A DNA stretch of 64,000 nt. Source: a virus. A program made the position numbers and the translations under genes. Positions within the stretch are counted from its first letter, which is position 1, and each line of letters begins with the position of its first letter. Below, piece after piece: positions 48,824 through 64,000 of the stretch. The stretch covers positions 1-64,000 of IMG/VR virus record IMGVR_UViG_3300033182_000157. One strand, given 5' to 3'. The notes below the pieces were generated by a model that worked only from the letters and a program-made list of their open reading frames with translations, searched no databases and was not told the DNA's origin.

Positions 48824-49870
48824 ATGGCTCAAATTAGTGCTCAGAACTTTAATAAACTAAGACAACGTATCTTAAACGTAGTAAATAATTCAGACTACGG
48901 TACAAATCCTCAAACGGACCAAGCAGTTGGCGGATACGGTCAAACGTACACAATTAATAGTGCTACAGTAGGCGGGATAATTGGCACTTTAGAGCATAGA
49001 CAATTATATCAGGCGATAGCAGCAGCAAGATTACACCAAACTGGCTCGCTACCTACATTAGTATCACCTATTGATGAAGATGATATTATTGGTCAAACAG
49101 AAACAAAACGATTATCAGGACAAAATGTTGTAACGGATGACTTATTAGCAGGTTACGATGATATGGAGGCTGCGATTGCTGCAGCTGAAGCAGATTTAAG
49201 AAATGATGTACACGCCCTAGGATCAAGAGAATTGTTTGATTTACGTTCTACTACTAGATCTTCAAATTGGGGAAACACGCAAACAAGTACAGAAATTAAC
49301 TGTGAGTTTCAGGTAGACTTTGGTAGTGCAGCAAATGCTAGAAAGTTTTTCAACACTGGCGGCGATATTAGAATTACAGCACAGCATAACATTCAAAATG
49401 GCGTAGCGGCAAGTGCTGCCAAAGACACTAGTTGGCAAGTACTACTAAACAACTTTAGTTATATTTTAAAATCACGTTCGTCAGCAGGTTCAGCACAACA
49501 AATCAACCAAGGTTGGGCAGGATTAACAAATTCTTACGCTCAAGTTGGTTATTATGCTAACGCTGGTGGCGGAGTTTATGCAGAAAACTATGTTAAAATT
49601 TCAGCAAAAGTTGACCAAGCAACTAACACAGCAGGAAATAGCCGTTATTTGTATATTAAAGTTGAACTAGTTGATGCTGATACAGGTGACGGAGCAAATT
49701 TAGGTTATAATCCTCCACTAGGTGTTGACGAATTTGTATCCGCTGGAACAGTAGTTGTATTATCTGAATACAGAGCAAACGCAGGACAATTATCAACGCC
49801 AGCAGGAACTATTAATGGTGTAGCAGTAGCACAGCCTAATGTAACATTCCTTAACGGCAACGAACTGTAA
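48824..49870 (+). CDS. Virion structural protein, paralogue 1
   Basis: A 348-residue protein with N-terminal ISAQNFNKLRQRILNVVN and a helix LYQAIAAARLHQTGSLP near residue 65. A beta-rich C-terminal half follows, with CEFQVDFGSAANARKFFNTG and DIRITAQHNIQNG near 155-190. The next gene has the same plan, so the two arose by duplication. No known domain is recognised. Position directly after the fibres suggests a fibre-associated or adhesion protein. Confidence 0.82.
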   Translation: MAQISAQNFNKLRQRILNVVNNSDYGTNPQTDQAVGGYGQTYTINSATVGGIIGTLEHRQLYQAIAAARLHQTGSLPTLVSPIDEDDIIGQTETKRLSGQNVVTDDLLAGYDDMEAAIAAAEADLRNDVHALGSRELFDLRSTTRSSNWGNTQTSTEINCEFQVDFGSAANARKFFNTGGDIRITAQHNIQNGVAASAAKDTSWQVLLNNFSYILKSRSSAGSAQQINQGWAGLTNSYAQVGYYANAGGGVYAENYVKISAKVDQATNTAGNSRYLYIKVELVDADTGDGANLGYNPPLGVDEFVSAGTVVVLSEYRANAGQLSTPAGTINGVAVAQPNVTFLNGNEL

Positions 49871-49881
49871 GAGGTAGATAA

Positions 49882-50901
49882 ATGGCGGCAATTGGAGATT
49901 CGGTCACAGCAAGTGATTATAATAATATTCGAGCAAGAATAAATGCTGTCACAGCCGGTTATTATCTTTCTAATTATCCAGGTCTAAATACAGTATCTGA
50001 AGGCGATACAATCGATGATGCTCATTTTGATTCTTTAGAGCAAGCAATTACATATCTATATCTCCACCAAAACGGAACAGATCCTGGCATAACACAAAAT
50101 GACGCAGGTGATACTATTTTAGCAGGTGACGGCGCCGGCGGCTCTATTACTAGAGGTATTGAAGATTACAGTGCTGTATTGACTGACGTAGAAGGTGGAA
50201 CGGCAAATCACGCTGCAAATCAATATTCGCAAACAGGCACAGCAGGAAAAGCAACAAGCACTACTACCTGGGGCGGAAGTACATCGTGGGACGGTCCTGA
50301 AACGTTTGAAAATGACGAAGGTAATATATCTGCTGGACCGGGCGATTTTAGAGCTGGCTTAAACGAAAATGGTCGAGTTGAAATTACTTGGACTATAAAC
50401 TTTGGTAATACTACAAATTACAACAGCTTTTTTGCGTTAGGTTGCAATCTAACATTTAAGGCTAGATTAGGAAATAGTAGCGGAACAGTTTATACAAGTG
50501 AACCAACTCAAGCAAAACGTGCTTGGTGGTATAATCATTTAAATGTTGCTAATCCTATTAACTATGTAATGGATAAAGCAGCTCTTGACGCGGCTACTAC
50601 AACTTACGCAAATGTAATTAACAAATCAGACAGTGATGACGCAACATATAGTGTTAACAATACCCAGTTAGCAATTAGAAAAAATGCTGCGGGCACAAGT
50701 TTTGATTTACGCTTACGTTGTAACGATTGGGATGATGCTTCAGTTGAATGGCCAGGCGAACCTGAAGATGAGAACGTAAATGGATCTGTAATATCGTGGG
50801 TAGACATGAAACGTATTACTGCTTCTACTAACGCATACGTTAATACCGACACTTCACAACCATCTATAACCAACGGTGGTTATACAGTTGTTGATATCTA
50901 A
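49882..50901 (+). CDS. Virion structural protein, paralogue 2
   Basis: 339 residues, related to the gene before it: VTASDYNNIRARINAVTAGY matches the paralogue's N-terminus, SLEQAITYLYLHQNGTDPG its middle helix, and VEITWTINFGNTTNYNSFFA followed by LGCNLTFKARLGN its C-terminal strands. The two are only modestly similar outside these blocks. It is the last gene of the structural group, since a host-type promoter follows after its stop. Function unknown beyond a likely virion role. Confidence 0.82.
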   Translation: MAAIGDSVTASDYNNIRARINAVTAGYYLSNYPGLNTVSEGDTIDDAHFDSLEQAITYLYLHQNGTDPGITQNDAGDTILAGDGAGGSITRGIEDYSAVLTDVEGGTANHAANQYSQTGTAGKATSTTTWGGSTSWDGPETFENDEGNISAGPGDFRAGLNENGRVEITWTINFGNTTNYNSFFALGCNLTFKARLGNSSGTVYTSEPTQAKRAWWYNHLNVANPINYVMDKAALDAATTTYANVINKSDSDDATYSVNNTQLAIRKNAAGTSFDLRLRCNDWDDASVEWPGEPEDENVNGSVISWVDMKRITASTNAYVNTDTSQPSITNGGYTVVDI

Positions 50902-50910
50902 AAACCACTC

Positions 50911-50939
50911 TTGACATCTTGTGTGTTTTATAGTATTAT
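50911..50939 (+). promoter_or_regulatory. Sigma-70 promoter at the start of the accessory cluster
   Basis: TTGACA (50911-50916), 17 bp, TATTAT (50934-50939) matches consensus at eleven of twelve positions with ideal spacing. Transcription would begin near 50946, about 20 bases before the ATG at 50966, with AAAGG as ribosome site. It separates the late structural genes from the enzyme cluster downstream. Confidence 0.85.
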
Positions 50940-50965: not shown

Positions 50966-51298
50966 ATGGACCAAAGACTAGAAACTGTATTACAAGATGT
51001 TGATCATATCAACACTATTAACAATCAAAAAAGATTACTAAAAGAGCAATATGTTGAAGATTGCGTTCTTTACTATAACGGCGGAAAATTTACTGTAACT
51101 AAAGAACTACTAGGATTTACAACACAACTAGGAACATCATACATTACAGACGATAATCTAGTACCAGTTGAAATTGATAAAGACGAGTTTAATCGTTTAA
51201 TATCTAGTGTGTATTGGAACGCAACAAAAAAGTATCACGCAGCATATCAAGAACTTATAAAAAACTCTAGAAATATTGAGGAACTACTCAATTTATGA
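50966..51298 (+). CDS. Small protein of unknown function at head of accessory cluster
   Basis: A 110-residue protein with an amphipathic helix (LETVLQDVDHINTINNQKRL), a beta segment (CVLYYNGGKFTVTKELLGF) and a C-terminal helix. I recognise no family. It is first behind the sigma-70 promoter and its stop overlaps the start of the first glycosyltransferase-like gene by four bases (ATGA), so it belongs to the same transcription unit. Confidence 0.8.
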   Translation: MDQRLETVLQDVDHINTINNQKRLLKEQYVEDCVLYYNGGKFTVTKELLGFTTQLGTSYITDDNLVPVEIDKDEFNRLISSVYWNATKKYHAAYQELIKNSRNIEELLNL

Positions 51299-52155
51299 CA
51301 GCAGGAGTTTTGTTTTTTGCGTATAACAATGATCTTGTTGACTATATTAAACAAGCAATTTATAACGCAAAACTAGTTAAAAAGCATTTAAACTTGCCAG
51401 TAGCAATAGTTACTGACAGTGTTAATTATCTTGAAAAAACGTATCCGTGGTATAAGAAATATGTTGATTATGTTATACCTAAAGGAACTGGACAAAATAC
51501 ATTTTCAAAAAAACACTATTATGCCGGTGAACACTTCTCTACTATGGCAGAATGGAAAAACGTGAACAGATTTGATGCGTATAACCTTTCACCATTTGAT
51601 ACCACCATTGTTTTAGATACTGATTACTTAATTAGTAACAACAACTTTCTTAAAGTATTAGATCAAGATGATGACTTGTTTATATACAAGGACAGTTATG
51701 ATATTTCCTTAACAAGGAATATTCCAGGATTTGAACGTATTTCAGATGATACCCTTGACTTTTATTGGGCAACAGTTTTAATTTTTAAGAAAACAGAGCG
51801 TACAAACCGTCTGTTTAAACTTGTACAATTTATAAGAGAACATTATCATTATTTTAGAACATTGTATAGAATACCTTTAAAGACTTTTAGAAACGATTTT
51901 GCGTTTAGTATTGCTATACATATTCTTAATGGATATACTATAACAGACTGGCCTAAGATATTACCAGGTAAGATGTTATATTCTAGTCCAGAAGATGATT
52001 TGCTTACAATTAAAGATGAAAAATATACGTTTGTTGTAGGTAATAAATTTAGACGAGATAAAGTTAATGTAGTAACATTGACAGGCAGTAATATTCACGT
52101 TATGAATAAACTTCATTTAAATGAATTAATAGATAAGGAGTTTGAGCATGAGTAA
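51295..52155 (+). CDS. GT-A-like glycosyltransferase, paralogue A
   Basis: The 286-residue protein has a Rossmann-like start (GVLFFAYNNDLVDYIKQAI) and a DxD motif, D108-T-D110 in TTIVLDTDYLI, placed after the segment NRFDAYNLSPFDTTIV. In GT-A enzymes the DxD binds the metal and the nucleotide-sugar phosphates. The next gene has the same arrangement (NRWKAYNLSPYDETVVLDAD), so the two are paralogues. Sugar and acceptor are unknown. Overlaps of four bases upstream and eight downstream show tight coupling. Confidence 0.78.
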   Translation: MTAGVLFFAYNNDLVDYIKQAIYNAKLVKKHLNLPVAIVTDSVNYLEKTYPWYKKYVDYVIPKGTGQNTFSKKHYYAGEHFSTMAEWKNVNRFDAYNLSPFDTTIVLDTDYLISNNNFLKVLDQDDDLFIYKDSYDISLTRNIPGFERISDDTLDFYWATVLIFKKTERTNRLFKLVQFIREHYHYFRTLYRIPLKTFRNDFAFSIAIHILNGYTITDWPKILPGKMLYSSPEDDLLTIKDEKYTFVVGNKFRRDKVNVVTLTGSNIHVMNKLHLNELIDKEFEHE

Positions 52156-52918
52156 AGGTTATGTAATTTTTGCTCAACCTAACGGTAAAAGCGATTATAT
52201 TGCTCAAGCAGAATTGTTAGCGAAGAGTATACAAAAGTATAATACTATAAACAATGTAACAATAATATCAGAATTTGACGAAGATGATGCTGCGAACACA
52301 GATTGGAAAATAGAAAATCGATGGAAGGCATATAATTTATCACCATACGATGAAACAGTAGTGTTAGACGCAGATATGTTGTTTTTTAGAAATGTAGATC
52401 ATTGGTGGAATAAACTTGCTAACTATGATTTATTTTTTACTAGTGATGTATTAACATATAGAGGCGAAACTGTTACTAGTAATTACTATAGAAAAACATT
52501 TGAAAAGAATAATTTGCCTAATTTGTATTCAGCATTTTATTACTTTAAAAAGACTGAAATAACAAAGCAGTATTTTAAATTGTTAGAATCTATTATGAAA
52601 AATTGGAAAACGTATTATCAACGTTATCTAAAAAATATGTATCAAACTAAACAAAGTTTTGATCTATCATCTGCTTTAGCAGTAAAACTTTTAGGATTAG
52701 AAGATAGCGTTACGGATAATACACAAATACCAACATTTATACATTTAAAACCACACGCACAAAATTGGAAAGCAGTTTCTGAAAAGTGTACTACAAGAAT
52801 ACCAGTGTATAAATTTAACAATAATTTAATGTTAGATAGTTATATGTGTAACGATATTCTACATTATGTAGAAGATGAATTTGTTACACCTGAAATAAAG
52901 GAGTTCTTTAATGAATAG
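52148..52918 (+). CDS. GT-A-like glycosyltransferase, paralogue B
   Basis: The ATG at 52148 is chosen because AAGGAG stands seven bases before it; an in-frame TTG two codons earlier has no advantage. The 256-residue product starts SKGYVIFAQPNGKSDYIAQA and has the DxD motif D74-A-D76 in ETVVLDADMLFF, preceded by NRWKAYNLSPYDE as in its neighbour. After it come aromatic-rich helices and a conserved-looking THL-type end (FIHLKPHAQNWK). It is a probable retaining or inverting transferase of unknown sugar. Its last eight bases overlap the next gene. Confidence 0.78.
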   Translation: MSKGYVIFAQPNGKSDYIAQAELLAKSIQKYNTINNVTIISEFDEDDAANTDWKIENRWKAYNLSPYDETVVLDADMLFFRNVDHWWNKLANYDLFFTSDVLTYRGETVTSNYYRKTFEKNNLPNLYSAFYYFKKTEITKQYFKLLESIMKNWKTYYQRYLKNMYQTKQSFDLSSALAVKLLGLEDSVTDNTQIPTFIHLKPHAQNWKAVSEKCTTRIPVYKFNNNLMLDSYMCNDILHYVEDEFVTPEIKEFFNE

Positions 52919-53459
52919 TGCTGAAGAACGTAAAAGAATATTTAGAGAACAGTTACAAAAAACACAACAACAAAAGTTTTATGTAGGTTTTGAGGATTCT
53001 GGGTTTATTACAAGCGTTGTATCCAATCCGGAACAATTAACTACAAAGGCTTGTGAAATTTCTAAAGAACTAGCAGAAGGATTTTTATCAGGTACGATAA
53101 ACAAAGACACTTATATTGCTCTTCCTATAGGCGATGGTTGGGAAATAGTTAAGAAAGAACAGCAAAAAAATGTTGCTGAAGTTTCTCGTAATTTTTATAG
53201 GGTAGAAGAAAAGCAAGATAAAGTACAATTAGTGATTAATGTACAGGATAGTACACTTACATTAGAAGTCGATAGTAGTGTAGATAAAAGTACACTAACG
53301 TCCTATGGACTATATGTTTGTGATAAAAACTGTTTTCACATGTTACATCAATCTATTGTATTAGACCCAGAAAGACGAGTATATCCTTTAACAAAAGTAG
53401 ATGATATTGACATATACGCAGGCGCCCACGCAGTAGGATTAGGCATAACTTATGTTTGA
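52911..53459 (+). CDS. Protein of unknown function in the accessory cluster
   Basis: 182 residues without a family I recognise. A charged helix (AEERKRIFREQLQKTQQQ) is followed by beta-rich sequence such as GFEDSGFITSVVSNPEQL, then LVINVQDSTLTLEVD and LDPERRVYPLTKVDDIDIYA. No catalytic motif or membrane segment is visible. It overlaps both neighbours by eight bases, so it is co-expressed with the glycosyltransferases and may be a partner or scaffold protein. Confidence 0.78.
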   Translation: MNSAEERKRIFREQLQKTQQQKFYVGFEDSGFITSVVSNPEQLTTKACEISKELAEGFLSGTINKDTYIALPIGDGWEIVKKEQQKNVAEVSRNFYRVEEKQDKVQLVINVQDSTLTLEVDSSVDKSTLTSYGLYVCDKNCFHMLHQSIVLDPERRVYPLTKVDDIDIYAGAHAVGLGITYV

Positions 53460-54780
53460 ACTAAAGTTTACTGATTACAATTTTTATTTTTTAGATCAAG
53501 GCAGTCCTAATGTCGAGGAAAACTACTACGATCTAATTAACAAAGTGCCTTGGGCAATTAGAACAAACGCATTACCTTCTAATGAAAAGTATTTTGTTAT
53601 AACAGACAATAGTAAGTTAGATGATAACTTTTTCAATTTTACAACTAAGTTTGAAGATACGGTAGAAAATTCTACAATAGTATGGCAAAATGTAAGTGCT
53701 ACTAATAGACTAACTTTTAATTCTAGCGGTTTACGTTGGGTAGGCGGCGATAGTTTTTCATTTGAAATACCTCAAGTAGGTGCGTATGTATTTCATAGTA
53801 GTTCTAACACACAAGCATACGATACAGCATACAACGAAGTAACAAACTTAATAAATGAACATAGTTTAAAAAACATTAGCAACAGCGATTACAAAAAAAT
53901 ATTAGTATGGTGTAATGTTGGTGCTGATGTAGATTACGGAGTTGAAAGTACTAAAGGTGCTAGACAAGCACTAGTTGACAACAACTTTGAAATAGATTTT
54001 GACGAGCCATATACTCCGTTACAAAGTGAATTCTTTAAAACAGTATACAAAACACCATATAGAATTGCTAATAAAATGATTAGAGAAAACGTTAATAGCA
54101 AATATGACATTGTGTTTATTTCTTATAACGAACCAAATGCGGAAGAAAATTGGCAGGCACTAAAAGCACGTTTTCCTAGAGCAAAAAGAGTACACGGTGT
54201 AAAAGGAATACACCAAGCACACATCGAAGCAGCCAAACAATGTTCTACAGAAATGTTTTGGGTAGTTGATGCAGATGCTAAAATTGACGAAGAGTTTAAA
54301 TTTAACTATCTTGTTCCTAAACATGAATTAGACTTTGTTCACGTATGGCGTTCAAAAAATCCTGTAAATGATTTAATTTACGGATACGGCGGAGTAAAAC
54401 TATTACCAACACAAAAAACAATCAATATGGATTTATCTAAACCTGATATGACAACGAGTATATCAGATAAATTTAAACCAATGGGAACAGTATCAAATAT
54501 TACAGCGTTTAATACAGATCCTTTTAATACTTGGAAATCAGCGTTTCGTGAATGCTGTAAATTAGCAAGTAAAAGTATTGACAGACAACACACTGAAGAA
54601 ACAGAAGAACGTTTAACACATTGGCAGTTTGAAGGTGCTAATAGAAGATACGGAGAGTATGCTCAAATGGGCGCAAAACAAGGACGTGATTACGGAGAAG
54701 CAAATAGCAAATCTCCAAAAGACTTACGTAAGATAAATGACTTTGATTGGCTAAAGGAACAGTTTAATGAAAATACGTGA
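53452..54780 (+). CDS. Tandem glycosyltransferase-like protein with degenerate first unit
   Basis: The 442 residues hold two copies of one domain. Unit 2 (about 222-435) has YNEPNAEENWQALKARFP, the DxD motif D273-A-D275 in FWVVDADAKID, VWRSKNPVNDLIYGYGGVKL and a C-terminal GAKQGRDY block. Unit 1 (about 14-175) repeats the order in shorter form: GSPNVEENYYDLINKVPWA, YFVITDNSKLDDNF where DxD has become T-D-N, VWQNVSATNRLTFNSSGLRW, then WCNVGADVDYGVESTKGARQ. The single-unit paralogue downstream has the same parts. Unit 2 is probably a GT-A type transferase; unit 1 is probably inactive. The stop overlaps the next gene by 14 bases. Confidence 0.8.
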   Translation: MFELKFTDYNFYFLDQGSPNVEENYYDLINKVPWAIRTNALPSNEKYFVITDNSKLDDNFFNFTTKFEDTVENSTIVWQNVSATNRLTFNSSGLRWVGGDSFSFEIPQVGAYVFHSSSNTQAYDTAYNEVTNLINEHSLKNISNSDYKKILVWCNVGADVDYGVESTKGARQALVDNNFEIDFDEPYTPLQSEFFKTVYKTPYRIANKMIRENVNSKYDIVFISYNEPNAEENWQALKARFPRAKRVHGVKGIHQAHIEAAKQCSTEMFWVVDADAKIDEEFKFNYLVPKHELDFVHVWRSKNPVNDLIYGYGGVKLLPTQKTINMDLSKPDMTTSISDKFKPMGTVSNITAFNTDPFNTWKSAFRECCKLASKSIDRQHTEETEERLTHWQFEGANRRYGEYAQMGAKQGRDYGEANSKSPKDLRKINDFDWLKEQFNENT

Positions 54781-55681
54781 TATTGATATTATATATCTAA
54801 GTTATGACGAGCCTAACGCTGATGAAAATTACGCCGACTTGCTTACAAAAGCACCGTGGGCCAAACGTGTACACGGAGTAGAAGGTAGCGATGCTGCTCA
54901 TAAAATGTGTGCTGAAATGTCAGAAACAGATCGCTTTATTACTGTTGACGGTGACAACAAAATTTATGCTGACTTTTTAGAGCAAGAGATAGATTTTAAT
55001 CAACACAAATACATAAGTGAAAGCGTGTTAAGTTGGTGCGGTTATAATGTAGTCAATGGACTGATGTATGGCAATGGCGGGTTAAAATGCTGGCCTAAAG
55101 ATGTTGTTTTAAATATGAAAACACACGAAGCAAGTGATCCAAACGATTTAGCAGCTCAAGTAGAATTCTGTTGGAACTTAGATTATGTACAAATGAGTAG
55201 TTGCTATTCAAAAGTATATAACAATGCCAGTCCTTGGCAAGCCTGGAGAGCAGGTTTTCGTGAAGGTGTTAAAATGAGTTTAGATCAAGGTAAGAGGTTT
55301 AATAGTCTTACATTTAGGGAAGAAGTATATTGGCAAAACTTACATAGGTTACTTATTTGGTGTAACGTAGGAAGCGATGTTGAAAACGGACTATGGGCAA
55401 TGTATGGCGCAAGACAAGGCGCATACATGACAAATCTTACAGACTGGGATTATGTAAATGTACGTGATTTCAAATACTTGAACAATCTCTGGAAAACTCA
55501 AGTAAGTAAAGAAGTAAATGAAGATAATTTAATGGACAAAATAAACGATGTAGGAAACGCTCTACAACGTGATTTACATATTGCTGTAACTTCAGTGTTT
55601 ACTCCAACACAAAGTAAACAGTTTAAGGAAAGTTATACTAATACAGATAGGACAGGACAAGGATTTATTGATGTTGAATAA
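54767..55681 (+). CDS. Single-unit glycosyltransferase-like protein, paralogue of the tandem one
   Basis: 304 residues beginning directly with the shared domain: LSYDEPNADENYADLLTKAP, RVHGVEGSDAAH, the DxD motif D61-G-D63 in FITVDGDNKIYADF, SWCGYNVVNGLMYGNGGLKC, and LLIWCNVGSDVENGLWAMYG followed by ARQGAYM near 197-221. It keeps the acidic motif that the first unit of its neighbour has lost. The C-terminal 80 residues are unique and helical. It overlaps the previous gene by 14 bases and the next by 11, so this is a run of coupled genes. Confidence 0.8.
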   Translation: MKIRDIDIIYLSYDEPNADENYADLLTKAPWAKRVHGVEGSDAAHKMCAEMSETDRFITVDGDNKIYADFLEQEIDFNQHKYISESVLSWCGYNVVNGLMYGNGGLKCWPKDVVLNMKTHEASDPNDLAAQVEFCWNLDYVQMSSCYSKVYNNASPWQAWRAGFREGVKMSLDQGKRFNSLTFREEVYWQNLHRLLIWCNVGSDVENGLWAMYGARQGAYMTNLTDWDYVNVRDFKYLNNLWKTQVSKEVNEDNLMDKINDVGNALQRDLHIAVTSVFTPTQSKQFKESYTNTDRTGQGFIDVE

Positions 55682-57053
55682 ACTTGTAAAACGTTTAGGT
55701 AGACGATTAAAAATTGTAAAAGATCCTATTGATCGTATGTCAGAAGTAAAAGCAATTACTGATCAAATATCTCCTACCTTTTGTTTAGCAAAATGGCATC
55801 ATACTACTATCTATTTACAAACTGGAGAAACACACAGTTGTTATCATCCAGCACCGCATACAATACCGTTAGAAGAAATAGAAACAAATCCAAGTGCGTT
55901 ACATAATACAAAAGAAAAGAAACAACAACGTTACCAAATGCTAAAAGGCGAAAAGCCTAGCGGTTGTCAGTATTGTTGGAACATTGAATGTATGGGCAAG
56001 GATTATATTAGTGACAGGCACGAACGTAATAGCGGAATCTATACAAAGCAACGACTACAAGAAATAGAAACAAACGATTGGAACTTTAATGTAAATCCTG
56101 AATACATTGAAATTTCGTTTGGCAATGAATGTAATTTACGTTGCGGATACTGTCACCCTAAAGCAAGTAGTAGTTACTATAAAGAAATAGAACATTATGG
56201 CCCTTATAAAACTAAAAATCATACACAACACATACGTAAATTAAACATTTATAAAAAGGAAGAAGAAAATCCTTATGTAGAAGCATGGTGGCGTTGGTGG
56301 CCTGAAGTAAGTAAAACTCTAAATATTTTGCGTATTACCGGAGGGGAGCCACTACTACAACAAAGTACTTGGCGTCTGCTTGACGATTTAGAAACTAACC
56401 CTTTACCTAATCTTGAACTAAACATTAATTCTAACTTAGCAGTAAAAAATGTACTAGTAAGACGCCTTGCTGATAAAGTAAATCATTTAGTTAAAAACGG
56501 AAAAATAAAACGTTTTAAACTTTTTACAAGTTTAGATACTTGGGGCAAACCTGCCGAATATATTAGAACAGGTTTAGACTTACAGGTGTGGGAACAAAAC
56601 TTTGATACGTGGATGACAAAAACAGATCAGCCTATAACATTTATGGTAACGTTTAATATACTTTCAGTTACTACATTTGATCAATTGTTAGCAAAATTTT
56701 TAGAATGGCGTAAAAAATATCAAACAGGAAAAAGACGTATTAGATTTGACACTCCGTATTTAAAAGAGCCTATTCAATATGATATGAATATACTTCCTAA
56801 AAGTTTTATGTCTTATATGGAACAACATTTACAGTTTATAAAAGACAATCAAGATGAAAATGACGTAAACAAATTTTCAAATCTTGAGTATGAAAAGTTC
56901 CGTCGTGTTGTAGATTATATGCGTACTACAGAATATAGTACAGAGCGTTTAGAAGAAGGGCGTAAAGATTTTGTTATATGGTTTACTGAACACGATAAAC
57001 GTAGAGGTACAAATTTTGCTGAAACGTTCCCAAAACTAAAAAACGTTTTTTGA
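55671..57053 (+). CDS. Radical SAM enzyme with N-terminal cysteine-rich (twitch-like) region
   Basis: The ATG at 55671 is preferred to the in-frame TTG at 55668. The radical SAM cluster motif is C154-NLR-C158-GY-C161, and ITGGEPLLQ near residue 221 is the typical SAM-binding GGEP. Before it lie Cys38, Cys57, Cys99, Cys102 and Cys107 (FCLAKWHH; HSCYHP; GCQYCWNIEC), enough for an auxiliary iron-sulfur cluster. This order, accessory cysteines first, is the reverse of usual SPASM/twitch enzymes, in which they are C-terminal. Phage proteins of this kind are annotated as twitch-domain radical SAM proteins. Substrate unknown. The 3' end overlaps the convergent gene by 18 bases. Confidence 0.86.
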   Translation: MLNKLVKRLGRRLKIVKDPIDRMSEVKAITDQISPTFCLAKWHHTTIYLQTGETHSCYHPAPHTIPLEEIETNPSALHNTKEKKQQRYQMLKGEKPSGCQYCWNIECMGKDYISDRHERNSGIYTKQRLQEIETNDWNFNVNPEYIEISFGNECNLRCGYCHPKASSSYYKEIEHYGPYKTKNHTQHIRKLNIYKKEEENPYVEAWWRWWPEVSKTLNILRITGGEPLLQQSTWRLLDDLETNPLPNLELNINSNLAVKNVLVRRLADKVNHLVKNGKIKRFKLFTSLDTWGKPAEYIRTGLDLQVWEQNFDTWMTKTDQPITFMVTFNILSVTTFDQLLAKFLEWRKKYQTGKRRIRFDTPYLKEPIQYDMNILPKSFMSYMEQHLQFIKDNQDENDVNKFSNLEYEKFRRVVDYMRTTEYSTERLEEGRKDFVIWFTEHDKRRGTNFAETFPKLKNVF

Positions 57054-58268
57054 TTGGTAATGTTCGTCTACTTGAAGGTTGCCATTAGTATATCTTATAG
57101 AGTTTTCAACAAGTAATAAAAACTCATCTACACTGTACTGATTGTAGTCTGCTCTTTTATAGTTATAATTTAAGACATCGACATTTCCTAAAGACCAATC
57201 TATTTGTTGTGTACGATTCATTTTAGAAAGCAGTTTACATACTCTTTTAAGTTCTTTTTCTAAAGCAGCCCATCGTTTTGCTGGATCTCTTATAAAATCA
57301 AATTCATAATCAAACCAGTCAGTATAAAGTTTATATCCTAATCTTGCTAGGTTATAGTTTTGCCCCATTTGCCCCCAAATAATTATAGGTACTTTTTGGG
57401 CAACAACTTTAAAAGTTTTTTCACTGTAGAACAGACTAGTTTCATTCCAGTCACTTTGCATTGTTTCGCAGGTTAGGTTAAACAATACTTGTTGATTTAG
57501 TTTTATACCTAAGTCGTTTGCCCAGTTAGTTTCAAAGTCTTCAGTGTCGACAATCATGGGAGTATTTTTTGACATAAACTTATCCATAGAGTCAGTATGA
57601 AAATAATTGCTACGATATTCACCGGGACGTACTTTGTCGTGACTAATTAATCCGTGTTTTGCTAATCCGCTATCGTGTAAACGCCAAACAGCATAACTCC
57701 TCCAAAAACGTTTACGTCTATTTAAGTTAAGAAAGTATTTTCCGTTATAATTTTCTAACAATGATATATGTCTTGGCTTAGATTTGCCAGCATCTATGTA
57801 CATTGCTTTTTGAAAACTGTCCCAATGCATCATTTCTATAACATTTATTTTATTTTTCTTTTCGGTTAAACCATGCCAATATACATCAAATATTCCTTTT
57901 TCTCGTAAATTTCCGCTAATAAAAAATATTCCAGCAGGGTCAATATTATGCTTTACCGCGCTATTATATAATGCTTGTGAAACAGCATGATGTGGAACAG
58001 CCCATCCTTCATGAGAACCGTCTAGTACAAATACACATTGTTTGTTGCGTAACAGATCTAAAAAGTTAGTCTTGATGCTACCTAAGATATCACTATCAAG
58101 ATATATTCCTTGTTTATATGAATACTGACACATCATTACACAGACCTTGTCAAATTCTCTATTCTTCATAAACGACAAGTGTTTACGATAATGATGAAAA
58201 CTACCAGGCGGGTCTATCATCTCTCTAACATAAGTTGTGTCATTTAGCCATTCAGAAAAATATATCAT
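57036..58268 (-). CDS. Conserved phage protein, possible glycosyltransferase of GT-B type
   Basis: It is the only minus-strand gene in the accessory cluster. The start is taken as the ATG at 58268; a TTG codon immediately before it is in frame. The 410-residue protein has VCVMMCQYSYKQG near 43, CVFVLDGSHEGWAVPHH near 78 and, near 294, the segment FYSEKTFKVVAQKVPIIIWG followed by LARLGYKLYTDWFDYEFDF. The pattern S-EKT-K-x-P-I-x-G-LG is common in the C-terminal half of exostosin- or fucosyltransferase-like proteins, but no full family match can be claimed. The gene converges with the radical SAM gene (18-base overlap) and diverges from the dehydrogenase gene. Confidence 0.75.
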   Translation of the reverse strand: MIYFSEWLNDTTYVREMIDPPGSFHHYRKHLSFMKNREFDKVCVMMCQYSYKQGIYLDSDILGSIKTNFLDLLRNKQCVFVLDGSHEGWAVPHHAVSQALYNSAVKHNIDPAGIFFISGNLREKGIFDVYWHGLTEKKNKINVIEMMHWDSFQKAMYIDAGKSKPRHISLLENYNGKYFLNLNRRKRFWRSYAVWRLHDSGLAKHGLISHDKVRPGEYRSNYFHTDSMDKFMSKNTPMIVDTEDFETNWANDLGIKLNQQVLFNLTCETMQSDWNETSLFYSEKTFKVVAQKVPIIIWGQMGQNYNLARLGYKLYTDWFDYEFDFIRDPAKRWAALEKELKRVCKLLSKMNRTQQIDWSLGNVDVLNYNYKRADYNQYSVDEFLLLVENSIRYTNGNLQVDEHYQSKNVF

Positions 58269-58269
58269 C

Positions 58270-58278
58270 AATAAATAC
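58270..58278 (+). promoter_or_regulatory. Late-type promoter element AATAAATAC before the UDP-sugar dehydrogenase
   Basis: AATAAATAC lies 36 bases before the ATG at 58314 and abuts the start codon of the divergent gene. It gives the dehydrogenase gene a late-type signal, while the genes on both sides of it in the cluster have host-type promoters upstream. Confidence 0.6.
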
Positions 58279-58313
58279 TCTTATAATAACAGCAATATTT
58301 AGTGGAGTAATTT

Positions 58314-59540
58314 ATGAAGATTGGATTTATTGGCGTAGGCAAACTAGGTATGCCTTGTGCGGAAGAAATTGTACACAAAGGACACACTGTTGATGGGTAC
58401 GATGTAGCAGAAGTACAAAGCGACTATGTAAACGTAGTAAATTCAATTGAAGAAGCAGTATCAAATAAGGAAATTGTGTTTATTGCTGTACCTACTCCGC
58501 ACGATCCATTATATGATGGCAATGCACCAACAGCACATTTACCTACAAAAGATTTCTCATACGATATTGTAAAAGAAGTTTTGTTTGAAGCAAACAAGCA
58601 TATGACTGAAGATCAGTTATTAGTTCTTATTTCAACAGTACTTCCAGGAACAACTCGTCAACAGTTTGTACAGTTAGTTACTAATACACGTTTTGTATAT
58701 AACCCTTACTTGATTGCTATGGGCAGTGTAGCATGGGACATGGTAAATCCAGAGATGGTAATGATTGGCACAGAAGATGGACGCGAAACAGGTGATGCTA
58801 AACAACTTGTTGAATTTTATAAAACTGTAATGGAAAACGATCCGCGTTATGTTGTTGGAACTTGGGACGAGTGCGAGTGTATTAAAGTATTTTATAACAC
58901 ATTTATTTCTACTAAAATTAGTTTAGTGAATATGATACAAGACGTAGCAGAAAAGCAAGGTAACATCAATGTTGATGTTGTTACTAAAGCACTTGCTGAA
59001 AGCACAATGCGTATTATGGGCAAGCAGTATATGACTGCTGGAATGGGCGATGGCGGTGCGTGTCATCCACGTGATAATATTGCTCTACGTTATATGGCAG
59101 AAGAACTTGATTTAGGATATGATTTGTTTGATGCTATTATGAATGCTCGTGAAATACAAGCAGAAAATTTAGCAAAAGAATTAGTAAAACACTCTAAAGA
59201 AAATAAGATGCCTATCTATATTCACGGTAAAGCATACAAACCAAAAGTATCGTACTTAGACGGTAGTTATAGTTTGTTAGTAGGACACTATTGCGAAGCA
59301 ATGGGATACCCTGTAAAATATATTGATCCTTATACTGGAGATGATTTTGAACCTAGCAAGCCGGGTGTATTTTTGTTAGCACATTCCGCAGAAGTAACGT
59401 ATGAATATACAGGTAAACAAAGTACAGACGAATTATATTGTGTTATACCAATGGGAAGTATTGTAATTGACCCTTGGCGTAAGTTTCAATCTCAAGCAAG
59501 TAAAGTAATACACTACGGAAATACCCGGAATAGAGCTTGA
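58314..59540 (+). CDS. UDP-glucose/GDP-mannose 6-dehydrogenase family
   Basis: Oxidises the C6 hydroxyl of a nucleotide sugar to a carboxylate with two NAD+, giving a uronic acid donor. Evidence: the NAD motif GVGKLG at residues 7-12 with D30 ending the second strand; VPTPHDP near 59; STVLPGTT near 107; the central-domain run ECECIKVFYNTFISTKIS near 186; and the catalytic cysteine C250 in GDGGACHPRDN. The length of 408 residues suits the family. The substrate (UDP-glucose, UDP-HexNAc or GDP-mannose) cannot be told. It probably supplies the neighbouring glycosyltransferases. A ribosome site GGAG is present. Confidence 0.92.
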   Translation: MKIGFIGVGKLGMPCAEEIVHKGHTVDGYDVAEVQSDYVNVVNSIEEAVSNKEIVFIAVPTPHDPLYDGNAPTAHLPTKDFSYDIVKEVLFEANKHMTEDQLLVLISTVLPGTTRQQFVQLVTNTRFVYNPYLIAMGSVAWDMVNPEMVMIGTEDGRETGDAKQLVEFYKTVMENDPRYVVGTWDECECIKVFYNTFISTKISLVNMIQDVAEKQGNINVDVVTKALAESTMRIMGKQYMTAGMGDGGACHPRDNIALRYMAEELDLGYDLFDAIMNAREIQAENLAKELVKHSKENKMPIYIHGKAYKPKVSYLDGSYSLLVGHYCEAMGYPVKYIDPYTGDDFEPSKPGVFLLAHSAEVTYEYTGKQSTDELYCVIPMGSIVIDPWRKFQSQASKVIHYGNTRNRA

Positions 59541-59565
59541 CATTTCTAATAAGAGATGTTACTAT
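59537..59565 (+). promoter_or_regulatory. Sigma-70 promoter with start point at the next ATG
   Basis: TTGACA (59537-59542), 17 bp, TACTAT (59560-59565). The -35 box overlaps the dehydrogenase stop codon. The start codon at 59572 begins six bases after the -10 box, just where transcription would start, so the message would have almost no leader. There is no ribosome site in front of that ATG. Confidence 0.75.
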
Positions 59566-59571
59566 GTATAG

Positions 59572-60627
59572 ATGCAAAATGTCAACGATATTAAAACAGT
59601 TCATATTGAGCTAACTGATAAATGCCAAGCACAATGTCCAATGTGTGCTAGAAACTATCACGGTGGCAAACCTCGTCCTTTTATTCGCAACGGCGATATT
59701 AGCATTGAACAATTTAAAGAATGGTTCCCTAAAGACTTCCTAGCACAACTATCTAATTTTTATAGTTGTGGCAATTACGGCGATCCTGCTTTTGCTAGAG
59801 ATTGTTTAGAAATCTATTCGTATGTACGAGAATGTAACCCGCATACAAGACTAGCAATACATACTAACGGTGGTATGCGAAATCCCGAATGGTGGACTAA
59901 ACTAGCACAACACAACATTGAAGTTGTGTTTGCTGTAGACGGATTCAAAGGTAAACACGAGTTATATCGTAAGAACACAAATTTTGATAAAGTTATTGAA
60001 AATCTAACAGCATTTATAAACGCAGGAGGCACTGCAAAAGTTGATAGTCTTGTTTTCGCACACAATGAACGCGATGTAGAAGAACTAGAACAATATCTAT
60101 TAGGGTTAGGTGTAGAAAGTGTAAATTTTGTTAGCACAACAAGATTTTATGAAATGACAGAATTTGAAGTACATGATAATAATGGAAATGTACAATATAA
60201 AATACATCCTGCTCAGACGCCTAAGTATAAACGAACACCAAACAACACGTTAAACGCATTAGTGGATAAAGAAGTACGAGATGCTGCTCTTGAAGCAGCA
60301 GAGATATCTCCTATATGCGAGAGCGAACAAGGTATATATGTTGATCCTTACGGAAATATATCACCGTGCTGTTGGATAGGTGGCGACTATTTAGAAGAAC
60401 CAGTTAAAGAAACACTGCCGATACATTATCTTAGAAACATAAGTGTAGAAAATACTCAACAAATAATGAACGAAATAGGTGTTCCTAAATGCCAAGATGG
60501 TGTACTTGGAACTAATACAGTCTTGTTTGAAGAACTTAACAAGTACTGGCAAGGTCCTGATAAATGTATGACTTGTGTGAAGGTATGCTCTAAAGCATTA
60601 TATAATAGTAGAACGAAAAATGACTGA
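59572..60627 (+). CDS. Radical SAM/SPASM enzyme
   Basis: The radical SAM motif is C18-QAQ-C22-PM-C25 in LTDKCQAQCPMCARN. The C-terminal part has the cysteines of a SPASM domain: C249, C266, C267 (ISPICESEQGIYVDPYGNIS, then PCCWIGGD), C307 and C332-MT-C335-VKV-C339. SPASM proteins usually modify peptides, as in ribosomally made peptide products and anaerobic sulfatase maturation, or act on sugars and small molecules. The length of 351 residues is normal. It carries its own promoter, its ATG has no ribosome site, and it overlaps the next gene by eight bases. Substrate unknown. Confidence 0.88.
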   Translation: MQNVNDIKTVHIELTDKCQAQCPMCARNYHGGKPRPFIRNGDISIEQFKEWFPKDFLAQLSNFYSCGNYGDPAFARDCLEIYSYVRECNPHTRLAIHTNGGMRNPEWWTKLAQHNIEVVFAVDGFKGKHELYRKNTNFDKVIENLTAFINAGGTAKVDSLVFAHNERDVEELEQYLLGLGVESVNFVSTTRFYEMTEFEVHDNNGNVQYKIHPAQTPKYKRTPNNTLNALVDKEVRDAALEAAEISPICESEQGIYVDPYGNISPCCWIGGDYLEEPVKETLPIHYLRNISVENTQQIMNEIGVPKCQDGVLGTNTVLFEELNKYWQGPDKCMTCVKVCSKALYNSRTKND

Positions 60628-61597
60628 CATTCCATGGGATAATATTACACGATTTGGCCAAAAGACCCTCCTAAAGAGCCATCTTTTTACAGTCTCTTGG
60701 ATCACCACTAGATATTGTAATTATGAGTGCTCTTATTGCTGGCCTCACGCAAGATCTAGTACCCCAGATACAAACCCACTAGAATTGTACTTAAACACGA
60801 TGGATAGTATCAAGGCACAGGCAAGAAACAATGGTTTTACAGATTTCCACTTCAGTTTTAGCGGAGGAGAACCTACAGTAAATAAGCACTTCTTGCCCTT
60901 AGTAGAACACTACTGTAACGACGAAGCACCAGAATATCAAAGCATACACATGACTACAAATCTGTCCCCAGGCAGCAAGTGGTGGAATAAGTACTTAGAA
61001 GCAACACAAACTCTACAGCGCAGAAGCGTAACAGCAAGTTTCCACGACGAGTTTGCTAAAGAACAAGAGTTTGGAGATAAGTGCTTACAACTAATGAATG
61101 GAGGAGTATATGTTACAATCAATCAAGTTATGGTTCCAGAAAAGTTTGACGAGCTTTACGAACGCTTGGGAAGATTTGCCGCCAGAGGTATTAATGTCAC
61201 TCTCAAACCACAGTCCAATCCTACCGCTACAGCAGTGGTTGAAGGCTACACAGAAGAACAAATCCGAATCATGCGAGAAGGATTCCCACAGCAGTGGCAA
61301 GGCGAATCAGTCGCACAAGTTGCACTCTACGACAAAGAAGGACAAGAGTACGAATTAGATCAAGCAGAACGTTTTAATGCGTTTGGATTCAATAAATTTG
61401 AAGGTTGGTATTGTAACGCAGGATATCAAGGTATTGTAATACGTGAGAATGAAGTTAAACGTAGTTACAGTTGCCACGAAGAACCATTAGGTACACTAGA
61501 AAACTTTAAGATATTCGATGGCCCTCGTAGATGTATAACTCCAACTTGCGTTAGTTCGGCAGACTCAAAACTGCCAAAGGTAAAATATGAAGGTTGA
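60620..61597 (+). CDS. Radical SAM enzyme, third of the cluster
   Basis: The motif C33-NYE-C37-SY-C40 in TTRYCNYECSYCWPHAR and the SGGEP at 81-85 identify a radical SAM protein. The core is followed by VTASFHDEFAKEQEFGD and NVTLKPQSNPTATAV. Several cysteines near the C-terminus (GWYCNAGYQ; SYSCHEEP; RCITPTC) may bind a second cluster. It is 325 residues long. It overlaps the SPASM gene by eight bases and the methyltransferase-like gene by 11, so the three are probably made together and may act in sequence. Confidence 0.87.
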   Translation: MTDIPWDNITRFGQKTLLKSHLFTVSWITTRYCNYECSYCWPHARSSTPDTNPLELYLNTMDSIKAQARNNGFTDFHFSFSGGEPTVNKHFLPLVEHYCNDEAPEYQSIHMTTNLSPGSKWWNKYLEATQTLQRRSVTASFHDEFAKEQEFGDKCLQLMNGGVYVTINQVMVPEKFDELYERLGRFAARGINVTLKPQSNPTATAVVEGYTEEQIRIMREGFPQQWQGESVAQVALYDKEGQEYELDQAERFNAFGFNKFEGWYCNAGYQGIVIRENEVKRSYSCHEEPLGTLENFKIFDGPRRCITPTCVSSADSKLPKVKYEG

Positions 61598-62183
61598 ATT
61601 AGAAGATGTATTGTTTTGGATGGACGCTATTCGCAATAGCGATGATCGTTATCGTACACTTGAAAGTTTCTGGAAAGGACAGATTCATAGTAAGCAATGG
61701 CTTATTGAACGCCTTGAAGAACACGCTCTACCAAGCAAAAATAATATAGAAATACACGGAGGTTGGAATGGAGTTCTTGCTAGTCTTATTTTTAATAGCA
61801 GCATTAATGTTGGACGAATCACAAGTGTAGATGTTGATCCTGTATGTAAAGAAATTGCTCATACAGTGAATAAAGCATATGAAATGCGGGGTATGTTTAA
61901 GGCTGTAACAGAAGATATGTGTACTCGTAATTACAAAGCGGATATTGTTATTAACACAAGTTGCGAGCATATTACTCAAGAACAGTACGAGCAATGGTTA
62001 AGCAATGTTCCCCAATTAGCAACTATTGTTTTACAAAGTAATAATTATTTTGCTTGTGAAGAACATATTAGATGTGTAGAAGATTTAGATGAGTTTGTAG
62101 AACAAAGTAACATACGTGTATTTTGGAAAGGAGTTTACGAAACTCCGACGTACAGTAGATTTATGATTATTGGAAAGAAGTAA
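61587..62183 (+). CDS. Small methyltransferase-like Rossmann protein
   Basis: In the 198-residue protein the glycine-containing loop IEIHGGWNGVLASL (55-68) is in the place of motif I, and RITSVDVDP (78-85) gives the acidic residue expected to hold the ribose of S-adenosylmethionine. ADIVINTSCEHIT (118-130) is in the place of motif IV. The pattern suits a class I methyltransferase, but motif I is not of the classical GxGxG type, so a related nucleotide-binding role remains possible. It is placed between a radical SAM and an oxygenase gene. The stop shares a base with the next start. Confidence 0.75.
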   Translation: MKVELEDVLFWMDAIRNSDDRYRTLESFWKGQIHSKQWLIERLEEHALPSKNNIEIHGGWNGVLASLIFNSSINVGRITSVDVDPVCKEIAHTVNKAYEMRGMFKAVTEDMCTRNYKADIVINTSCEHITQEQYEQWLSNVPQLATIVLQSNNYFACEEHIRCVEDLDEFVEQSNIRVFWKGVYETPTYSRFMIIGKK

Positions 62184-62842
62184 TGGAAGAGCGTGTAAAC
62201 AAGTTGCTACAGATGTTTGTTGATGGTGAGTTAGGCTGGCTTGAACTTGATACTTCGTTTACACCTTATTATGAACCTACTGAACTAGAAGCAGTTGAAC
62301 CTTATTATGTAGAACATCGTGAAGGGGAAAATCACGAAGGTTGGGAAAGTTGTTGTATACACGGACTAGGTCCCAACAAAACACGTATTTGTTACGACTA
62401 CGGATATGATAATGAAATAGAAGCACCGTACTACTGGACTGAAGTGGCAGAAGCAGCACCGAGAGCGGCACAGTTTTGGAAAGACTTCCCAGCAGAGCGA
62501 TTTGCTCGTATGAGATTTATGAAATTAAAGCCAGGTGGAAACATAGGACTACACAATGACAGACCTAAACAATTTCCGCCTAGTTTAGTTGACTTTTTAT
62601 TACCTATAAATGTAGCAATTACACATCCGGAAGATTGTCGTATGTTTGTAGAAGGATACGGTTTTGTTCCGTGGGAGCCTGGAAAGGTATTTCTTGTGAA
62701 CATAATGCAAAATCATATGGTAATTAACAATTCAGATCAAGATAGAATTCATATGATTGCTCAAGTACATCCTGGCAATCGTAAAAAAGAATTTATGGAC
62801 CTATTAATTAGAAGCGCAGTAAAAAATGGTTACGAAGTTTAA
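62183..62842 (+). CDS. 2-oxoglutarate/Fe(II) oxygenase, aspartyl/asparaginyl hydroxylase-like
   Basis: The iron-binding triad is visible: H124-x-D126 in GGNIGLHNDRP, and H178 in NIMQNHMVINNSD. Arg188 in DQDRIHMIAQV is the probable 2-oxoglutarate ligand. The chain of 219 residues also has FARMRFMKLKPG just before the HxD, as in aspartyl/asparaginyl beta-hydroxylases. Such enzymes hydroxylate proteins, peptides or small molecules. Its start overlaps the stop of the methyltransferase-like gene by one base and its end overlaps the next gene by 17 bases. Confidence 0.82.
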   Translation: MEERVNKLLQMFVDGELGWLELDTSFTPYYEPTELEAVEPYYVEHREGENHEGWESCCIHGLGPNKTRICYDYGYDNEIEAPYYWTEVAEAAPRAAQFWKDFPAERFARMRFMKLKPGGNIGLHNDRPKQFPPSLVDFLLPINVAITHPEDCRMFVEGYGFVPWEPGKVFLVNIMQNHMVINNSDQDRIHMIAQVHPGNRKKEFMDLLIRSAVKNGYEV

Positions 62843-64000
62843 AGCAAGAACATCTAGCAATATAGCATTCATATGTCTTGATATTTTAAAATATGTCAAG
62901 GACACGTATATTAGAGATATAGTAAAGAATATTGCAGATTTTACGGTACAGAATTTAGTTGACCATGGATATGATGTGTATATTACTAAAAGATACACAG
63001 ATGGCCAACGTTTATTTTTAGATGATGTTATTAAACAAATTAGGAACGATTATACTCACGTAGTTGTTTATACAAATGACACAGAGTTTGAAGGCGGCGG
63101 ATTTTTTAGTGCCCTTGAAAATTTAGTACAGGAAGATTTTTTTGTTGCTGGGCATATTTTAGATCGTAGTAACTTTGATGCTTATTACGAAATACACGAT
63201 CAATGTTTTGTAGTTAATTTAAAACAATACATTGATTTAGGCACTCCAGAAATTGGCGACCAGGAAGAAGTATCAGAAGTTAATTTATTAGAAATTGTTC
63301 CTAGTACAGATCATTATCACGACAACTACACACCAAAGAGTGTTTGTGTAAGTGATACGTTAAAAAAATTTAAGAATGTTCCATTTGGATGGAAGTGGCT
63401 AAACACTGGCGCACGAATTAAAGTGTTTGATGAATCAATTAGAAACGCAAAACGAAACTATTATGCTCGTTATCCGGAAGAGTTTCATAAAAATATTGCT
63501 TATAATTTTAAAAAACATCATTATGCTAGTTCAGAATTATTTTATCCGGCAAATACAGAAGAGCCTGTAGAATTAGACATTGATATAATTGAGCAAATTG
63601 CTGTCTCTGCAAGCGGGTTAAATTTTTTATATTACTTAGACAAATACGGATATAATGAAAATACAGAAGTTATTTTTTATGATAACAACCCAACCAGTTT
63701 ACGTATGATGGAAAAGGTTGTATCTTGTTTTGACGGAACAGATTATGTTAAATTTGTAAAAGAAAATTGTACAGGAATATTTGCTAGTGACAAAGCAATA
63801 CAAGACCATTGGGATACATTTAAAAAGTTGTGGCCAATTGTCAATAAAGTTAAGTTTCGTTTTGATAATATAGATGCAATGTACGAAGTACCTCCAAGTT
63901 TATGTAACGGTAAAAATAATATCTATAATCTTACTAACGTATTTTCATACGAGCCTAATATAGCGTTTCGTTCACTTTCTCACAGAGTTGCTTCACAAAA
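62826..64000 (+). CDS. Partial gene cut by the window end, methyltransferase-like C-terminal part
   Basis: The frame opens at the ATG at 62826 and stays open to the end of the window (391 complete codons), so the protein is longer than seen. It begins MVTKFKARTSSNIAFICLDI. Residues about 30-130 look like a small alpha/beta domain. Residues about 257-295 hold AVSASGLNFLYYL and TEVIFYDNNPTSLRMME, a loop and acid arrangement like motifs I and II of S-adenosylmethionine-dependent methyltransferases. It overlaps the oxygenase gene by 17 bases and is probably the next member of the same operon. No function can be assigned. Confidence 0.8.
   Translation, partial: MVTKFKARTSSNIAFICLDILKYVKDTYIRDIVKNIADFTVQNLVDHGYDVYITKRYTDGQRLFLDDVIKQIRNDYTHVVVYTNDTEFEGGGFFSALENLVQEDFFVAGHILDRSNFDAYYEIHDQCFVVNLKQYIDLGTPEIGDQEEVSEVNLLEIVPSTDHYHDNYTPKSVCVSDTLKKFKNVPFGWKWLNTGARIKVFDESIRNAKRNYYARYPEEFHKNIAYNFKKHHYASSELFYPANTEEPVELDIDIIEQIAVSASGLNFLYYLDKYGYNENTEVIFYDNNPTSLRMMEKVVSCFDGTDYVKFVKENCTGIFASDKAIQDHWDTFKKLWPIVNKVKFRFDNIDAMYEVPPSLCNGKNNIYNLTNVFSYEPNIAFRSLSHRVASQ

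Follow-up and report, generated by a model that had tools for sequence, protein, structure and literature searches.

What do the enzymes encoded behind the tail-fibre genes of a large uncultured T4-like phage make, and on which surface would their product be placed? The question is raised by the end of the window, as we call the whole 64,000-base stretch analysed here, which covers bases 1–64000 of an incomplete IMG/VR virus record of 80,035 bases (IMGVR_UViG_3300033182_000157). The T4-like structural module occupies 1–50.9 kb of the record, its major capsid protein being 71% identical to the counterpart in a 349-kb Vibrio phage, and no near DNA match to the record was found among phage records. 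Behind this module lies an island of 32 genes, g01–g32, at 50966–79242, which consists of two recurring modules, A (g01–g09) and B (g10–g32). We tentatively favour the view that it is a two-module carbohydrate-tailoring island within the host-recognition region, which would place a glycan on the adjacent fibre-associated proteins.

Extent and composition of the island

The first-pass annotation described an overlapping enzyme cluster with three radical S-adenosylmethionine (SAM) proteins, and both descriptions hold within the window, where 10 of 11 same-strand neighbours among the island's open reading frames overlap and CxxxCxxC is found in g07 (C155), g10 (C18) and g11 (C33). The cluster is larger than described: 14 of its open reading frames, at 50966–64163, begin in the window, with g14 crossing the window end, and genes g15–g32 continue up to 79242 and add six further radical SAM enzymes. 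Across g01–g32 overlaps join 23 of 25 same-strand neighbours, compared with 5 of 23 in 1–50902 of the same record, and the non-coding sequence of the whole 28-kb island amounts to 159 nt.

Nine radical SAM proteins (g07, g10, g11, g17, g18, g19, g20, g21 and g26) combine CxxxCxxC with matches to radical SAM families. In g07 (324 bits), g18 (335 bits), g21 (406 bits) and g26 (187 bits) the match is to the twitch-domain radical SAM family NF033640, above its cut-off of 170 bits, and the motif is present in these NF033640-matching proteins. Paralogue pairs inside the island are g02/g03, g05/g06, g15/g28, g23/g31 and g24/g25. A search for strongly hydrophobic segments revealed no membrane-spanning protein in g01–g32. 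The family labels that we use for related loci come from purpose-built profiles, which can merge paralogues; g26, for example, carries the g18 label in the genome maps.

Module A and the fibre genes

Module A, which lies on the plus strand apart from g08, begins with a small conserved protein, g01 (50966–51298), followed by the glycosyltransferase (GT)-like g02 (51295–52155, DTD motif) and its paralogue g03 (52142–52918, DAD motif; 26% over 220 aa), a Nucleotid_trans-type glycosyltransferase (PF03407, 24.6 bits, cut-off 22). The protein encoded by g04 (52911–53459) sits at a conserved position, a slot that family F16 fills in other phages. GT-A-like g05 (53452–54780) contains two g06-like regions, matching g06 at 33% and 21%, and g06 itself (54767–55681, DGD) is a predicted GT-A glycosyltransferase. 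The twitch-domain radical SAM protein g07 (55668–57053) carries CNLRCGYC and falls below the PF04055 cut-off. On the minus strand, g08 (57036–58271) is a predicted GT-B-type glycosyltransferase, and g09 (58314–59540) belongs to the UDP-glucose/GDP-mannose dehydrogenase family (phrog_9148, 328 bits; PF00984 and PF03721, both above their cut-offs). The catalytic C250 ascribed to this sugar dehydrogenase at first pass is indeed present (GMGDGGACHPRD); near it g09 has an arginine, at a place where lysine is usual in the UDP-glucose dehydrogenase family.

No usable family match was obtained for g05/g06 and g08, and PDB profile searches of g06 and g08 were empty or weak. Structure prediction, a check suggested with the first-pass annotation, agreed with a glycosyltransferase assignment for two of the enzymes: the AlphaFold models of g06 and g08 (mean pLDDT 85 and 86) resemble GT-A and GT-B enzymes, and their Foldseek lists are dominated by glycosyltransferases, including RmlT, TarS and the PBCV-1 capsid glycosyltransferase for g06 and, as best matches, TreT, MurG and BshA for g08 (E 0.004–0.02). 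Because the Foldseek E-values are modest, the models support a predicted fold class, GT-A for g06 and GT-B for g08, and not a donor or acceptor.

The order of these genes is fixed. In all 24 dereplicated phages with a readable gene before g01, the order u05-g01-g02-g03-x-g06/g05-g07 comes right after the fibre genes: u05 or the pair u05-u06 precedes g01, g02-g03 follow it directly, and g06/g05 and g07 lie no more than seven genes away. The candidate acceptor u05 (48824–49870, plus strand) is a conserved protein encoded between the fibre gene and module A, and on a bacterial chromosome a 28% relative of it stands beside genes of module A; u06 (family F77; 49882–50901, plus strand) occupies the position adjoining g01 in close relatives. 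The expectation that the enzyme set always stands beside fibre genes is therefore confirmed for module A, in 24 of 24, and does not extend to module B, which need not be there.

Eleven dereplicated g07 loci have no glycosyltransferase block in the stretch covered; some of them start at g07, and in most of the others g07 lies amid other genes. The presence of the block alongside a detached g07 was judged on two long records only, the shorter contigs being indecisive, and both of these (G003, 353 kb; G008, 223 kb) have genes of the g05/g06 type at another place. Together with L012–L016 and L046 these records form a lineage in which the twitch radical SAM gene of the g07 type lies by itself among other genes, at a distance from the glycosyltransferase block.

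The upstream regions of related loci fall cleanly into two groups, one with the late-type motif ATAAATA (F33, 22/22; F51, 16/17; F73, 8/8; fibre gene u04, 10/12) and one with sigma-70-type sites (F58, which reads as DNA ligase, 8/8; F46, 7/7). In the window, ATAAATA occurs 27 nt upstream of u04 (47312–48811, plus strand), a tail-fibre-type protein with PHROG tail fibre matches ahead of the island, and at 58271–58277 (plus strand), 36 nt upstream of g09. Ahead of g01 there is a sigma-70-type promoter-like site, TTGACA-17-TATTAT (50911–50939, plus strand), the sole 11/12 match in 46–64 kb, whose position is kept in G001 and G009. Among 28 relatives, 17 have the late-type motif ahead of g01 and 4, to which the window belongs, have a sigma-70-type site there. 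Expression timing is thus mixed and alone does not discriminate between a virion and a host-surface role.

The T4 late motif TATAAATA was considered as a late signal and rejected, as it is absent from the window, the late-type motif of this phage being ATAAATA instead; the octamer has 0 occurrences on both strands of the window and of L002, against 9.2 and 4.2 expected from shuffling. In both sequences ATAAATA is rare and mostly found just 5' of genes, as if selection acts against misplaced late-type promoters. Between the baseplate and fibre genes of the window, 25088–38623 is one open frame of 4511 aa.

Module B, its bacterial counterpart and its precedents

Module B opens with two radical SAM proteins, g10 (59572–60627; PF04055, 42.8 bits) and g11 (60620–61597; PF04055, 43.8 bits), both above the Pfam cut-off and on the plus strand like the genes that follow in the window. 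The conserved protein g12 (61587–62183) had been called methyltransferase-like, a likeness that stays weak (PF13649, 13.1 bits, below the cut-off of 27). The HxD oxygenase proposed at first pass is real, HND standing at residue 124 of g13 (62183–62842), an aspartyl/asparaginyl hydroxylase-type 2-oxoglutarate (2OG) oxygenase above the cut-off of PF05118 (43.5 bits, cut-off 22.6). The open reading frame g14 (62826–64000) runs on to 64163; a scan with it found no further loci, and weak g14 relatives are nonetheless present in other loci. Beyond the window, g17 is a B12-binding radical SAM protein, g16 a PP-loop protein with a QueC-like end and a QueC-like zinc motif, and g31 is kinase-like by PDB profile search (E 4e-5). 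The labels pyridoxal phosphate (PLP)-like for g15/g28 (an invariant lysine within an SLSKG-type motif) and 2OG-like for g24/g25, g29 and g30 (HxD...H motifs) were given mainly on motifs and conserved residues, not on family scores, and PDB profile searches of the PLP-like, QueC-like and 2OG-like families were empty or weak.

Scans with g15 and g24 fetched 85 loci in which g10, g18, g19, g21, g22, g23, g24/F24, g30 and g31 recur, with sub-blocks inverted or shuffled. When the loci are dereplicated and restricted to 14 kb or more, all 21 obtained with g15 contain g10, g18, g19, g21 and g22, and all 14 obtained with g24 contain g23 and g30. Rearranged versions of module B recur in dozens of contigs from marine and freshwater settings, some with module A alongside and some lacking it. 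In the genome maps the fibre genes, A and B are contiguous in G000, G001, G002, G003 and G009. Conservation of the gene set as a single unit does not hold throughout, the modules being partly separate: G004, G012 and G013 have B but lack A, and L017/G015, for example, has A but lacks most of B. One module B locus (L112:1020–5506) contains several oxygenase-like genes, of families g24 and F24, in a one-strand run.

Diverged relatives of both modules also occur in the chromosomes of bacteria, probably of the phylum Bdellovibrionota. A metagenome-assembled genome (MAG) contig titled Oligoflexia (NCBI phylum Bdellovibrionota) carries a 39% relative of g07 adjoining a carbamoyltransferase and DUF5989, and NF033640 is found above cut-off in 94 of 291 genomes of that phylum. 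Our bacterial sampling is of this one phylum, and the host and the direction of transfer lie outside its reach. Twenty regions of 14–20 kb each, most centred on the strongest NF033640 hits, hold relatives of g10, g11 and g21, often also of g05/g06, g12, g15, g16, g17, g27 or g09; counted from the maps, all of g10, g11 and g21 are found in 13 of the 20, g21 being present through selection. Regions in this phylum, that of MAG L084, resemble the island in having relatives of g05, g06, g09, g10, g11, g12, g15, g16, g17, g21 and g27 adjacent, and differ from it in forming a separate lineage and in having polysaccharide genes, GT2 among them, in the neighbourhood. GT2 genes are found in 10 of the 20 radical SAM regions and, among 20 control regions taken from a part of these genomes, in 1; the comparison carries some bias, the GT2 profile having been built from cluster members. 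In selected regions Pfam recognises UDP-GlcNAc 2-epimerase, CapD-type, bacterial sugar transferase, PMT_2 and acyltransferase/SGNH genes. In region L229 u05-g01-g02-g03-x-g06 stands 3' of genes reading as pheS/pheT; u05 may be part of the unit there, or the region may be a transferred piece of phage. In the trees of g11 and g21, phage and bacterial sequences are split by one 100/100 branch, and the phages therefore keep their own lineage.

A fusion of radical SAM and GT2 domains in bacterial loci, considered for proteins with CxxxCxxC beside GT2 domains, found no support from Pfam or our own radical SAM profiles at E 10; GT2 proteins with CxxxCxxC in an additional domain are encoded at L222:13684–15186, L223:4137–5642 and L211:4982–7930. 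In the bacterial loci L217, L218, L220 and L221 a small membrane-type protein of ~160 aa lies beside radical SAM clusters, often adjoining a hydrophobic protein of ~300 aa.

The novelty that the first-pass annotation saw in the combination is smaller than it suggested, host-recognition regions with radical SAM and glycosyltransferase genes and radical SAM-rich phage modules having been published (PMC7029224, PMC5332604, PMC2853527). The island extends a published type, in which such regions are known from pelagimyophages and Campylobacter phages. The host-recognition cluster of pelagimyophages is hypervariable and comprises tail fibres, glycosyltransferases and radical SAM cassettes (PMC7029224), and the fibre-adjoining region described here, with glycosyltransferase and radical SAM genes in a T4-like phage, is of this kind. 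Both belong to T4-like marine phages and have tail fibres, many glycosyltransferases, a UDP-glucose 6-dehydrogenase and radical SAM cassettes; the module composition, the fixed order of A and the radical SAM/2OG/PLP/QueC-like set of B are not described for the pelagimyophage cluster. In the Campylobacter phages CP220 and CPt10 a radical SAM cluster was termed an interchangeable module by its authors (PMC2853527); it likewise combines several radical SAM proteins with sugar-transferase-like genes, and those of CP220 score 88–93 bits on the g10 profile. Unlike the island, the CP220 module has an amidinotransferase (related to F70 of other loci; F70 is absent from this record's gene map), and 2OG oxygenase, PLP-like and QueC-like genes were not recognised in it. 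The T4-like TARA_ERS488813_N000010, with 12 radical SAM genes, is by its description a similarly radical SAM-rich marine virus; its genes were treated as Fe-S metabolism and not as a glycan island (PMC5332604).

Vibrio phage K566 has four twitch-type radical SAM proteins next to two GT8 genes and a weak GT4-like gene, but identity to g21 is ~21% and partners from module B were not recognised; a scan with a K566 radical SAM protein found no viral contig. This phage (L189) is cultured, a PagP-annotated gene (lipid A acylation) follows its twitch radical SAM/GT8 cluster, and it is a possible model system. With g05, g07, g08 and g16 as queries, tblastn at 1e-5 gave no match in 50,697 phage records (INPHARED), and we found no literature on phage radical SAM biosynthetic gene clusters.

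Possible products and acceptors

Carbohydrate chemistry is favoured because the contexts converge, from the GT-rich phage block, the GT8 genes of K566 and the sugar-transferase-like genes of CP220 to the GT2 and polysaccharide genes of the bacterial regions, and the early guess of glycan synthesis and C-H chemistry beside the fibre genes is supported. From the genes, motifs, predicted folds, synteny and contexts we infer each of the reactions, the identity of the acceptor and the cooperation between A and B. The dehydrogenase g09 would make a UDP-uronic-acid-type donor, the GT-A/GT-B enzymes g02, g03, g05, g06 and g08 would attach sugars to the acceptor, and g07 would carry out a radical C-H step on the sugar nucleotide or the glycan. 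Module B would tailor the product further with its radical SAM proteins (one B12-binding), 2-oxoglutarate-type oxygenases and PLP-like, QueC-like (carboxylate-activating) and kinase-like proteins. The acceptor would most likely be u05/u06, perhaps u04; a virion protein is favoured because the island has no membrane proteins, which suits a soluble acceptor, and because module A is strictly linked to u05 and the fibre genes. Also in favour are the GT families and folds of module A, its fixed order after the fibres with a similar order in a bacterial chromosome, the retention of g05/g06-type genes in both long records with a detached g07, and the late-type motif that 17 of 28 relatives have ahead of g01.

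Several points weigh against this proposal. The acceptor is a candidate, the structural matches of the g06 and g08 models have modest E-values of about 1e-3, and in the window's lineage g01 has an early-gene-like sigma-70-type site and no late motif. Module B occurs without A in several records, its link to glycans being drawn mainly from bacterial neighbourhoods and from contiguity in five records. Published opinion on related phages leans to host lipopolysaccharide (LPS; PMC7029224), and a host-surface role was proposed there for the glycosyltransferases of the host-recognition clusters. The main alternative, quite conceivable if somewhat less likely, is that soluble phage enzymes alter host sugar nucleotides, LPS core or O-chain intermediates, the changed surface blocking superinfection or adsorption to debris. 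The bacterial relatives adjoin surface-polysaccharide genes, the K566 cluster adjoins the PagP-annotated gene, and the sigma-70-type site ahead of g01 fits such a role. As in LPS/O-antigen loci, a sugar-nucleotide enzyme (g09) and glycosyltransferases (g03; the folds of g06 and g08) are present, but no flippase, polymerase, ligase, Gtr-type or other membrane protein was found in g01–g32, module A is strictly tied to u05 and the fibre genes, and most relatives have the late-type motif before g01.

Peptide and nucleobase chemistry are both disfavoured. The combination of many radical SAM proteins with extra cysteine-rich ends, a B12-type radical SAM protein and PF05118 oxygenases typifies heavily modified peptides such as those of polytheonamide-type clusters, and the radical SAM and oxygenase genes could modify a ribosomally synthesised and post-translationally modified peptide (RiPP), with the glycosyltransferases acting separately. 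The absence of a precursor peptide, noted at first pass, is upheld by the tight packing, with a smallest gene of 110 aa, and Pfam gave no hit in g01–g32 to a peptidase, an exporter or a recognition element, which makes a RiPP-like product improbable. We consider it quite improbable that module B makes or alters a modified nucleobase of phage DNA or tRNA, with g16 as the QueC step: besides the zinc motif of g16, QueD-type PTPS genes are present in 5 of 10 records (G002, G003, G004, G012, G013), but they lie outside the mapped island, g16 reaches only 13.8 bits on QueC TIGR00364 (cut-off 150), and TGT/DpdA was found in 0 of the 10 records, none of them known to be complete. Shuffled gene order, inverted sub-blocks and the separation of A and B among phages would also suit auxiliary genes that share an insertion hot spot and no common pathway; as the same families recur together (21/21 with g15, 14/14 with g24), and g10, g11 and g21 co-occur in bacteria too, this is very improbable.

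Within the carbohydrate-tailoring proposal, a bolder and less certain suggestion, which we put forward as speculation, is that module B constitutes an undescribed phage-adapted pathway, in which six to nine radical SAM proteins including a B12-binding type, several 2-oxoglutarate-type oxygenases and PLP-, QueC-, kinase- and acetyltransferase-like proteins would produce a hypermodified sugar or substituent for the phage surface. A broad range of uncultured phages, T4-like and jumbo, would keep the pathway as a lineage of its own, one anciently shared with Bdellovibrionota-like bacteria.

Radical SAM genes of phages have been tallied since 2010 and left unexplained. Their regular pairing with glycosyltransferases beside the fibre genes, together with the bacterial counterpart, makes it a testable question whether these phages make radical-modified glycans, and whether these are placed on virions or on the host. 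Either outcome would bring to light new glycan chemistry and a strategy by which phages of sea and lake water compete or disguise themselves.

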